In this document: piece after piece, positions 14,551 to 18,323 of the stretch
Numbering within the stretch: position 1 is the stretch's first letter
Layout: each line of letters starts with the position of its first letter
Origin: a virus
Reading direction: 5' to 3' (one strand)
Virus record (IMG/VR): IMGVR_UViG_3300021069_000014
Location: 1 to 21,020 of that record
DNA: 21,020 bases
Notes under the pieces: generated by a model
What the model was told of the DNA's origin: nothing
Database searches by the model: none
What the model saw: the letters and a program-made list of their open reading frames with translations, nothing else
Position numbers and translations under genes: made by a program

Positions 14551-15873
14551 TTAAAACGGGTCTTCTGAGTATTTTCTAGATTGGAAATGAGCCAGCTGGG
14601 TATTGTACTCAACGACCACTTTCCCTGTCCCTGTATTTCTTCCCTTCGCAACATTAAGCTCTGCCTTATTCTGCGTCAATTCCCCATCCTCAAATGTTGC
14701 AGTACCGTAGTATTCTGGGCGGTAAATCAATACGACCGTGTCTGCGTCATTCTCTAGCGATCCCGAATCTCTTAAATCTGAAAGCATTGGTCGGTTAGAA
14801 GCCCGGGTTTCTGTTCCCCGGTTGAGCTGGGTAAGGAGAACCACGGGGATGTCTAAATCCTTTGCCATAGCCTTCAAACTCGTTGAAATTATACCCACTT
14901 CCCTCTCTTTTTTGTCCAGAGATTTCACGGGTTTGATGTGTGAGAGTTGGTCGATGAACACGATTTCTACCTTGTGTCTCCGGATGTAATCCCTGCAAAG
15001 CGCCTTTATTTCACCGACTGTCATTCCACTCCTATCGTTGATGTACAATGGTAGCTCTTTTAGCTCACCCAGATACTTGAAGATCTCGCTTGTCTCATAA
15101 TCGCTGATCTGCCCGGTACGCAAACGTTTGGAATCTATCCCGTTATTGAAGCCGATAAGCCTGTCGTATATTGCGGTTGCGCTCATTTCCATAGTGAAGA
15201 ACGCCACTGGCACTTTGTGTCTGGCCATATTATTAGCGATTGTTAGCCCCAACCCTGTCTTACCCATAGATGGCCTGCCAGCTATCAGCACCAGGTCTTG
15301 TTTGGCGAATCCACTGGTTACTGCATCCAATTCGCGGATGTAGGTGTAGTAGGGCTTAATTAAACCAGATTTACGTTTCTCGATCAGGTCCACAACATCG
15401 CTGGTGTGGGCATCTTTGTCCTGGCGTTTCATACCCCTATCGACCAATTTCTCCATCTGGGTAAGATGGTTATCGATAGTGTCAAACACATCTTCGCTAG
15501 AATCGATCTTGTGTATCAGCGCTTTCCCTTGCTTTACAGCTTCGCGCTTGTAGTAGAACTCCATCAGTTGCCGTAAGTAGTGTTCAAAATTATGCGTAAC
15601 CATTACGTCAGCTGTGTAGGAGAGGATTGCGTGTGTGCCACCGCAGGCTTCGAGCAGTCCGCGGTTAGCCAATTCTGTTACCAGGTTGATGGTATTCACC
15701 GACCCGGCTTCGTCATAGACCTCGAGCATCATGCTCACCACCAGGTTTGTATTATCCAGGTAGAAGATGTTCTTATCTCCCTTGTATTCCAAGAAGATAG
15801 GTATATGGTGATTGTTGAATAACAATGTCCCGATGATCTGGTTTTCAAGAATTTCGTTAGTGTGCTGGTTCAT
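14551..15873 (-). CDS. dnaB: Replicative DNA helicase, DnaB type
   Basis: 440 residues from ATG 15873 (a TTG at 15891 is open in frame but has no ribosome site). Residues 1-105 match the DnaB N-terminal helical domain ('ENQIIGTLLFNNHHI'). The RecA core has Walker A GRPSMGKT at 199-206, Walker B 'VEIVFIDQLSHI', the H3 region 'VVLLTQLNRGTE', and the arginine-finger region 'DLRDSGSLENDADTVVLIYRPEYYG'. It forms the hexamer that unwinds the phage fork. Its start overlaps the end of the initiator-like gene by 17 bp, indicating coupling with that gene. Confidence 0.92.
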   Translation of the reverse strand: MNQHTNEILENQIIGTLLFNNHHIPIFLEYKGDKNIFYLDNTNLVVSMMLEVYDEAGSVNTINLVTELANRGLLEACGGTHAILSYTADVMVTHNFEHYLRQLMEFYYKREAVKQGKALIHKIDSSEDVFDTIDNHLTQMEKLVDRGMKRQDKDAHTSDVVDLIEKRKSGLIKPYYTYIRELDAVTSGFAKQDLVLIAGRPSMGKTGLGLTIANNMARHKVPVAFFTMEMSATAIYDRLIGFNNGIDSKRLRTGQISDYETSEIFKYLGELKELPLYINDRSGMTVGEIKALCRDYIRRHKVEIVFIDQLSHIKPVKSLDKKEREVGIISTSLKAMAKDLDIPVVLLTQLNRGTETRASNRPMLSDLRDSGSLENDADTVVLIYRPEYYGTATFEDGELTQNKAELNVAKGRNTGTGKVVVEYNTQLAHFQSRKYSEDPF

Positions 15874-16597
15874 CGTAAGGTAGCCTTTCAAGTGGGACAG
15901 ATGTGCCTCTAGGTGTAGGGGCTACGACCGTTCCATTGGTTGTAAATTTGTTTGAATTCCAGGTGGCGGCTGCTGCCTTCCAATTTCTCATTGGGTTTTT
16001 CCCAACTTTCCATCCGTTGGATTCGTAATAGTTATAAAATTTTTCTGCCTGTACAGGAGGATTAATATATTCTCGTTCGGTAAATAGTTGTATTACTTCT
16101 TGTGCATTATTTGGCCTATGTAAATCAATACTTTCTTTTTTTACTTTTTCTTTAAGATTTACTTTACTTTCCTTTACTTTACTTGCATTGCTTTTGGATT
16201 GCAATTGGTTATCCTTTTGTAATGCAATTGCATTGCTTTTGGATGACCACCTTACCTTCGCATTGTCACTCATTTTGCGACGTTTTGAATCAAGCGCTTC
16301 CATCCTTGAAAGCAAACTTTCACTCCAAAAATAATTTTCATCTTGAGATAAGAGACCGAAAGAAAAAATACAGTCATGCAAAAATTGTTTAACTTTTTCG
16401 GATTCTATATGTAATTCGTATGCAATTGCATTTTCACTATATTCATCTAATGGATAACGGTACCCATCCTGTTCTCTGAGGATTTCTATTATCATAAAAT
16501 ACCATTGATACCCCATTGGGTACTTTGTGAGCATTTTTACTATTTTTGGGTCATGCCTGGCATTAGAATCGTGAGAAAAATAAAATGCGTCTTTCAT
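15857..16597 (-). CDS. Replication initiator-like protein, Lin1244/DUF4373 N-terminus
   Basis: Start ATG 16597 has GGAG five bases upstream; the GTG at 16618 and ATG at 16615 lack a site. It gives 246 residues starting 'MKDAFYFSHDSNARHDPKI', the signature of the Lin1244/Lin1753 winged-helix domain (about residues 1-100). A low-complexity Lys/Ser linker (130-165) follows, then a C-terminal 'FYNYYESNGWKVGKNPMRNWKAAAATW' helical segment typical of phage replisome organisers. The linker DNA carries iteron-like repeats (16183-16244), so the initiator may bind inside its own gene, as lambda O does. It is coupled to the DnaB gene. Confidence 0.75.
   Translation of the reverse strand: MKDAFYFSHDSNARHDPKIVKMLTKYPMGYQWYFMIIEILREQDGYRYPLDEYSENAIAYELHIESEKVKQFLHDCIFSFGLLSQDENYFWSESLLSRMEALDSKRRKMSDNAKVRWSSKSNAIALQKDNQLQSKSNASKVKESKVNLKEKVKKESIDLHRPNNAQEVIQLFTEREYINPPVQAEKFYNYYESNGWKVGKNPMRNWKAAAATWNSNKFTTNGTVVAPTPRGTSVPLERLPYDEPAH
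16183..16244. repeat. Iteron-like repeats inside initiator gene (candidate origin)
   Basis: The 17-bp sequence TTGCATTGCTTTTGGAT occurs twice, at 16183-16199 and 16228-16244, 45 bases apart. The second overlaps a perfect 14-bp palindrome AATGCAATTGCATT (16221-16234). Its 12-bp core ATGCAATTGCAT recurs exactly at 16420-16431, and GCAATTG occurs at 16201. An AT-rich stretch with 'TTTACT' repeats (about 16130-16182) adjoins. This matches the iteron plus AT-rich layout of intragenic phage origins. Confidence 0.4.
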
Positions 16598-16613
16598 AAT
16601 GGCTCCAAAATTC

Positions 16614-16763
16614 ATCACAAGGCAGTGTCAAAATACCAACTAGGTGAGGATTTTTGTGGGCATTACTGCTACCACCTACCTTGTGATTGATTAATTTCAT
16701 GATTTGTACTTTCGATAATTAGTATTTTGACAATTGCAATATACAAGATCAAACATCGAAAGT
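16614..16763. repeat. Interlocked inverted repeats upstream of the initiator gene
   Basis: Four arm pairs interlock in 150 bp: A, ATCACAAGG 16614-16622 with 16679-16687; B, TGTCAAAATAC 16626-16636 with 16722-16732; D, TAGGTG 16641-16646 with CACCTA 16673-16678; C, ACTTTCGAT 16708-16716 with 16755-16763. D lies inside A, while A crosses B and B crosses C. It covers the non-coding gap between the two initiator genes. A weak 45-codon frame (ATG 16700 to stop 16563) also exists there and I do not list it as a gene. Confidence 0.5.
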
Positions 16764-16767
16764 CAAG

Positions 16768-17432: not shown

Positions 17433-17493
17433 TGAACCTCCGGTGCATATCATTTTTCATTTCTTCGTGCCATAAACCACCCACATCTTTCAT
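17416..17493 (-). CDS. Coupled 25-codon ORF after the glycosyltransferase
   Basis: The ATG at 17493 overlaps the stop of the glycosyltransferase gene (ATGA), and the frame reads 'MKDVGGLWHEEMKNDMHRR' then 'FNEDWA' and TAA at 17416-17418. The composition is protein-like, and it ends 17 bases inside the next gene's start. There is no strong ribosome site; re-initiation would be needed. It fills the gap between two coupled genes, which favours a real micropeptide, but a leader for the next start is equally possible. Confidence 0.4.
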   Translation of the reverse strand: MKDVGGLWHEEMKNDMHRRFNEDWA

Positions 17494-18323
17494 TGTTTCA
17501 CCCAATCTTCCTTTAGTTCATAAAGCGTAGCGGCATCAAGGAACCACTGGCTATCTTTTATTTCTTTATTTTGGATTGCCCATTTATATCCATGTTTAAA
17601 ACATCTGGCTATCATTAGAGGATTTTTCAATCCCAGCAAAATGGCAGCTTTATAGTTATCTATACACTCGGCATAATTGCCTTCGGTTTGATAACATTGG
17701 GCGAGGTGATATCTTTGGGATGCGGTATCTCGCCCTTCCTTAATATCTTGGAGTAAAAGAACTTTATTCCTCTGCATTTTCGCAACCATATCCTCGAACG
17801 GGATATCGTAGCCATGATGGATGAAGAAAACTTCCTCAGCATCCCCAAATCTAATATTTGCCTTTTCCAGCCCGGAAATCACCTCTTCGTGGGCTAAGTT
17901 AGTATAGGCTAAGCCTCTAAACGCCCTGTACAATCGATTTATGGGGCTTTTTATGAAACCCCGCTGTAGTCCTTGTTCTGTGAGGGGTCCAATAACTTGC
18001 ACGACAATAGACCCGATATATTTGGTCATTGCCTTATCGATTTCTTTTTTCAGGTCACCTCTGCATCTTTCATCGGCATCAATTTGGACAACCCAATCTC
18101 CCCGTTCCATTAATCGCAAGAGGAAGTTTCTAGCGGTACTAAAATCCTGCCATTTTGACTGGTACAATTTCGCGCCTTCCGTAATTGCTATTTCCCGTGA
18201 GTCATCTTTGGACCCGGTATCGAGACACCAAATCTCATCTACATTGGACTCCCTCAGCGACCTGATGCAATCACCAATATGTCGAGATTCGTCCTTCATG
18301 ATTATGTTCGCTACGATTTTCAT
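17490..18323 (-). CDS. GT2-family glycosyltransferase with TPR-like tail
   Basis: 277 residues. Residues 2-12 form the first beta strand of a GT-A fold ('KIVANIIMKDE'), DTGSKDDS lies at 35-42, and the DXD-type metal site QIDADER at 80-86 (Asp82, Asp84). The distal part (about 195-260) has 'QRYHLAQCYQTEGNYAECIDNYKAAIL', a TPR-like repeat. This is the layout of TPR-containing GT2 enzymes that modify peptides, glycans or surface polymers. Position among replication genes is unusual. Substrate could be modified phage DNA bases, a host surface sugar, or a protein. AAAGG lies before ATG 18323. Confidence 0.8.
   Translation of the reverse strand: MKIVANIIMKDESRHIGDCIRSLRESNVDEIWCLDTGSKDDSREIAITEGAKLYQSKWQDFSTARNFLLRLMERGDWVVQIDADERCRGDLKKEIDKAMTKYIGSIVVQVIGPLTEQGLQRGFIKSPINRLYRAFRGLAYTNLAHEEVISGLEKANIRFGDAEEVFFIHHGYDIPFEDMVAKMQRNKVLLLQDIKEGRDTASQRYHLAQCYQTEGNYAECIDNYKAAILLGLKNPLMIARCFKHGYKWAIQNKEIKDSQWFLDAATLYELKEDWVKQ

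Follow-up and report, generated by a model that had tools for sequence, protein, structure and literature searches.

A probable c4-2 type RNA and its complementary upstream site in the leader of a phage replication operon

Results

The region studied here lies in the replication module of the window, by which we mean the whole 21,020-nucleotide stretch of viral DNA that was analysed. On the minus strand, a gene for a replication initiator (Lin1244_N; phrog_2562; positions 15857–16597) begins with an ATG at 16597, preceded by a GGAG ribosome site at 16606–16603, and the module also encodes a DnaB-like replicative helicase (14551–15891, minus strand). An earlier note on this DNA had described a set of interlocked inverted repeats between two initiator-like genes, and PHROG matches indeed identify both neighbours as initiator-like, with proteins that are unlike each other in sequence. 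A glycosyltransferase family 2 gene (17490–18323, minus strand) adjoins the replication module. The closest matches of the window proteins are distant, and no DNA similarity was found between the region and phage records.

All four pairs of arms proposed in that note are exact, namely A (16614–16622 and 16679–16687, 9 bp), B (16626–16636 and 16722–16732, 11 bp), C (16708–16716 and 16755–16763 on the minus strand, 9 bp, of putative function) and D (16641–16646 and 16673–16678, 6 bp), and A, B and C do follow the crossing order A-B-A'-C-B'-C'. The note had allowed that shuffled sequence might be equally rich in such pairs; when the 150 bases were shuffled 5000 times with dinucleotides preserved, however, at least three pairs of at least 9 bp were never obtained (0/5000), an arm of at least 11 bp occurred in 16, and any crossing pair in 2. 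The interlocked set of three pairs is thus beyond chance, even though arm C taken alone is weak, as at least one 9-bp pair was present in 286 of the 5000 shuffles. The minus strand of the region, which is also the strand of the neighbouring genes, has a better fold than any of its shuffles (z -3.4), whereas the plus strand shows no unusual folding (z -1.2). Helix A can be lengthened to 12 pairs with one G-U (16614–16625 with 16676–16687), and helix B to 17 pairs, G-U included (16626–16642 with 16716–16732). Arm D was rejected as a helix of the structure described below because it competes with better-supported elements, one of its halves overlapping the P2 helix and the other lying in the loop of hairpin 2.

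When 1.5 kb of sequence was compared to all Rfam families, the minus strand between 16690 and 16609 matched the c4-2 RNA (RF02944, of the C4 antisense clan) over its full length, with 29.5 bits and an E-value of 0.0011, or 3.6e-6 when RF02944 alone was scanned over the whole record; the score falls short of the family's gathering cut-off of 41 bits, which is a curation threshold. On its own, this RNA folds with a z of -3.5 against shuffles. Other Rfam matches in the region (mir-33, SmY, SNORD28 and BSR0626) were far under their cut-offs and were set aside as chance or simple repeats.

We then compared the window to an architecture obtained by dissecting about 60 loci at which genomes or viral contigs carry c4-2, using a script that chooses the best-pairing segments and is therefore biased towards finding the structure. 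These loci have a closing helix and a P2 of 4 bp, two hairpins, the first of 20 bases and capped by a GNRA loop, and a linker; every one of these elements is found in the window. The closing helix P1+P2 corresponds to the extended arms A, with AUCACAAGGUAG (16676–16687, minus strand) as the 5' side and CUGCCUUGUGAU (16614–16625, minus strand) as the 3' side of 12 continuous pairs, and 7 bases separate its end from the GGAG ribosome site. Hairpin 1 (16656–16675, minus strand), which reads GUGG-UA-GCA[GUAA]UGC-CCAC and has a GNRA loop, contains a 19-base core, GGTAGCAGTAATGCCCACA, that is present unchanged in eight viral contigs, all of which (8/8) score as c4-2 there, with 32 to 50 bits and four above the cut-off; three of the eight, which carry terminator-linked copies, score 32 bits. 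Hairpin 2 and a GACA linker (16626–16655, minus strand) match the variable loop and linker of the c4-2 relatives and of P1 C4. The core together with a TTTTGACA linker was not found in any viral contig.

The earlier note had called for a look at covariation in relatives, and this spoke in favour of the structure, in that the relatives covary in the hairpin and their antisense part keeps its complementarity to the flanking sites. Each of the six hairpin 1 pairs detected by RNAalifold covaries, with both sides changed in 2 to 17 of 30 sequences, and P2 occurs across the relatives in many different paired forms. A covariance model built from a MAFFT alignment (R1) recovered only 6 pairs with the outer helix misaligned, and was discarded. 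In spite of the sub-cut-off score, the shared core, the full complement of elements and the covarying pairs make it very probable that the window RNA belongs to c4-2, as a divergent relative of the C4 immunity RNA of phage P1.

Arm B makes up the 3' side of hairpin 2 and the GACA linker, while its partner B' lies outside the RNA and upstream of it. In their extended form, the putative antisense part UAGUUGGUAUUUUGACA (16626–16642, minus strand) and its candidate target UGUCAAAAUACUAAUUA (16716–16732, minus strand) form 17 uninterrupted pairs. The candidate target, a counterpart of P1 a1 b1, is thereby complementary to loop and linker; it lies upstream, where the transcript is predicted to begin, and its position relative to the RNA is that seen in the c4-2 relatives and in P1. 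At the ribosome site and start codon, where a counterpart of a2 b2 would be expected, complementarity is at background level (best helix 6 pairs), and the best duplexes elsewhere in the window are no better than background. Opening the antisense part is predicted to cost 4.7 kcal/mol, while the B:B' duplex is worth -19.8 kcal/mol and no structure is predicted for the leader of 42 bases containing B'; because the duplex energy exceeds the opening cost and the leader is unstructured, pairing of B with B', in trans or in cis, is favoured with the core of the RNA intact. By duplex energies, none of 54 other RNAs equals the window's own RNA in matching its upstream flank, and the flanks of two other loci equal the window's own flank in matching its RNA. 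A search by terminase for sister phages, in which co-change of B and B' would show, found none among viral contigs.

Read by eye, most relatives share one layout, in which a promoter box of the Bacteroidetes type is immediately followed by a site complementary to the RNA's loop and linker, and then by the c4-2 RNA and a second complementary site that touches the start codon of the next gene, with linker and site types that go together (UGACA with TGTCA, and UAGGA with TCCTA). This was assessed with a permutation test in which, for 33 distinct loci with the window left out, each antisense part was scored by its best unbroken helix with its own flank or with a swapped one. Own flanks were unbeaten in 20000 permutations both upstream (mean score 19.4 vs 15.4) and downstream (16.8 vs 12.7), and the window's upstream match, with 17 pairs and a score of 34, shares first place in the set. 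In L026, L028, L030, L031, L032, L076 and L078, a terminator follows the upstream site, about 50 bases before c4-2, and in the relatives it appears by eye to overlap an alternative hairpin to which the target contributes the 5' side; pairing could in these cases promote termination, which gives such leaders the look of an antisense-controlled attenuator. A different setting is seen for the near-identical c4-2 copies of three viral contigs (L027, L029 and L033), which have no evident flanking targets and carry a terminator-like hairpin just downstream. Several Bacteroidota genomes (L094–L117 and similar loci) hold three to six c4-2 copies each, with both target sites; the next gene is in most cases an orphan ORF, about 77 aa long, from one family with no Pfam match.

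Replication modules of four viral contigs (L026, L028, L030 and L031) also contain c4-2, followed by a small ORF of 77–98 aa and a replication-initiator-like protein; a DnaB-like helicase comes next, according to a test for L031 and to the translated sequence for L026 and L028. The window initiator shares a phrog_15768 match with the L028 and L030 proteins, and a C-terminal stretch of the L028 protein is 62% identical to it. At other loci the next gene encodes a Bro-N protein (L072, with L075 and L076 looking alike), or a small ORF and then a pRha protein (L078). Among 80 viral contigs with related initiators, none had c4-2 in the initiator leader (0/80), and one weak, shortened match was seen elsewhere in one contig, which indicates that the combination found in the window is sporadic.

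A promoter-like TTGACT-17-TATATT (16738–16766, minus strand) is the best such site predicted on this strand, although five sites of this kind were found in 800 bases with 3.7 expected, and it is by itself weak evidence. It would set the transcription start at the beginning of B', near 16731. Arm C' sits in the spacer of this predicted promoter, which the two arms C straddle, and if the predicted start is right, C and C' would for that reason not form an RNA hairpin in the resulting transcript, even though they could do so in a read-through transcript. Arms C probably lie outside the RNA and are at most a candidate operator. Inverted repeats flanking the promoter were also considered as a general trait of c4-2 loci, and this was abandoned as few relatives have one.

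Discussion

We favour, with a probability of about 0.6, the reading that the locus carries an antisense RNA of the C4 clan together with its own target in the leader of a replication operon, exerting a control similar to that of P1 C4 and P4 CI. Transcription would start near 16731, making B' the first bases of the transcript, and the next element would fold as c4-2, with helix A closing it and hairpin 1 as its conserved core. The RNA would then be released from the leader and, through arm B (the 3' part of hairpin 2 and the GACA linker), pair in trans with the 5' end of replication-operon transcripts, lowering the expression of initiator and DnaB in a negative feedback or immunity circuit. 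Expression might drop through faster decay from the 5' end or through self-inactivation of the RNA in cis. That the RNA probably turns replication down is suggested by analogy with P1 and P4, as the window is without the start-codon site and terminator of the relatives. We acknowledge that the missing site and terminator, which are the known or suggested routes to repression in relatives, the sub-cut-off score, the 0/80 initiator leaders, the failure to find sister phages in which to compare B with B' and the fact that the promoter is only predicted count against the antisense reading.

The layout itself is already known from P1, from which the window differs in its type of RNA and in which gene this RNA heads. 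In the P1 record, the C1 operator, two c4 promoters, putative a1 and b1 sites, C4, a2 and b2, icd and ant1 follow one another, with kilA and the lytic initiator gene repL after ant1, and the a2/b2 sites are annotated with 'repression of icd ant translation'. Rfam recognises C4 (RF01695, 68.8 bits) and a separate c4-a1b1 family (RF03163) in P1, and the linker of C4 matches the a sites while its loop matches b2 and, with one change, b1. The window has a predicted promoter, a candidate upstream target, a C4-type RNA and an operon in the same order, with pairing through loop and linker as well; however, P1 C4 regulates icd and ant, whereas the window RNA heads a replication initiator and a2 b2 are missing. 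With c4-2 (RF02944) it shares the full-length match, the hairpin core, the P1 and P2 helices, the variable loop and linker and the upstream site, but it scores below the cut-off and differs from the relatives in a longer hairpin 2, in an antisense pairing unbroken through the 3' side of that hairpin, and in the lack of a start-codon site. In pT181-type plasmids, an antisense RNA controls the replication initiator, as proposed here, but it is transcribed from the opposite strand and acts via a terminator, unlike what is seen in the window. That an antisense RNA can control the replication genes of a phage has a precedent in the CI RNA of P4, which pairs with seqA and seqC, premature termination then blocking the replication genes (PMC4825925). 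By that description, P4 CI is, as proposed for the window RNA, a processed leader RNA that pairs upstream of itself and shuts off replication genes (PMC4825925), although P4 has sites on both sides and relies on premature termination, whereas the window holds no terminator, of the P4 CI or pT181 kind or any other, between target and RNA.

The earlier note had offered two explanations for the repeats, and the first, an RNA leader with alternative or pseudoknotted pairing, holds in that A closes the c4-2 RNA and B:B' crosses A, while a cruciform DNA site is superfluous for explaining A and B. Such crossing pairs could also belong to a leader acting purely in cis, in which the B'/B pseudoknot across helix A would alternate with hairpin 2 and tune initiator translation or leader stability, with no free RNA acting in trans. 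B' and B do reside on one transcript, their pairing preserves helix A and hairpin 1, helix A is a mere 7 bases from the ribosome site, and the window offers no other convincing target; we nevertheless regard this as rather unlikely, since P1 C4 and P4 CI are released antisense RNAs, the second site at the next start codon in the relatives fits action on other transcripts, and predicted access to the ribosome site is little altered by B:B' pairing. It is considerably less probable that the locus is a degenerate remnant, that is, an acquired c4-2 module that lost its start-codon site and terminator and regulates nothing any longer. The absence of both, the score and the sporadic occurrence are what such a remnant would show, but no helix is disrupted and no other member of the set has a longer upstream complementarity, which is unexpected under decay.

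If the antisense reading is correct, the window might represent a one-site RNA of the C4 type that needs neither a target at the ribosome site nor a terminator and acts directly on initiator and helicase by way of the extreme 5' end of their transcript, as an antisense copy-control circuit in a phage replicon, probably outside Bacteroidota; we put this forward tentatively, as a possible but doubtful extension. Regarding the host, most window genes have ribosome sites of the AGGAG type, whereas start regions differ in the c4-2 relatives that were found, mostly from Bacteroidota, so that a host of another group is probable. We found no statement on c4-2 function in the literature searched. In the loci gathered here, the loop and linker of c4-2 match the flanks as P1 C4 matches a1 b1 and a2 b2, and the genes downstream of c4-2 are antirepressor-like, belong to replication modules or are small orphans; the family thereby gains a testable function, and one antisense design may hold down either phage antirepressor genes or the replication genes themselves.

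Control at the DNA level alone, with the repeats as operators or initiator-binding sites at the promoter, is very improbable, since it leaves the c4-2 match, the strand-specific fold and the core common to c4-2 loci unexplained, even though arms C do straddle the promoter predicted here and a copy of TGCAATTG, a sequence repeated in the initiator gene, is located at the predicted start. Arm C may, however, serve such control in addition to the RNA. The earlier note had tied a GCAATTG motif next to the repeats to iterons, and a link of this motif to repeats in the initiator gene is plausible. All exact copies of TGCAATTG in the 21 kb window (16200–16207, 16223–16232, 16421–16430 and 16731–16738) fall in the initiator gene or its predicted promoter. 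This layout resembles that of origin iterons within an initiator gene combined with an autoregulation site at the transcription start.
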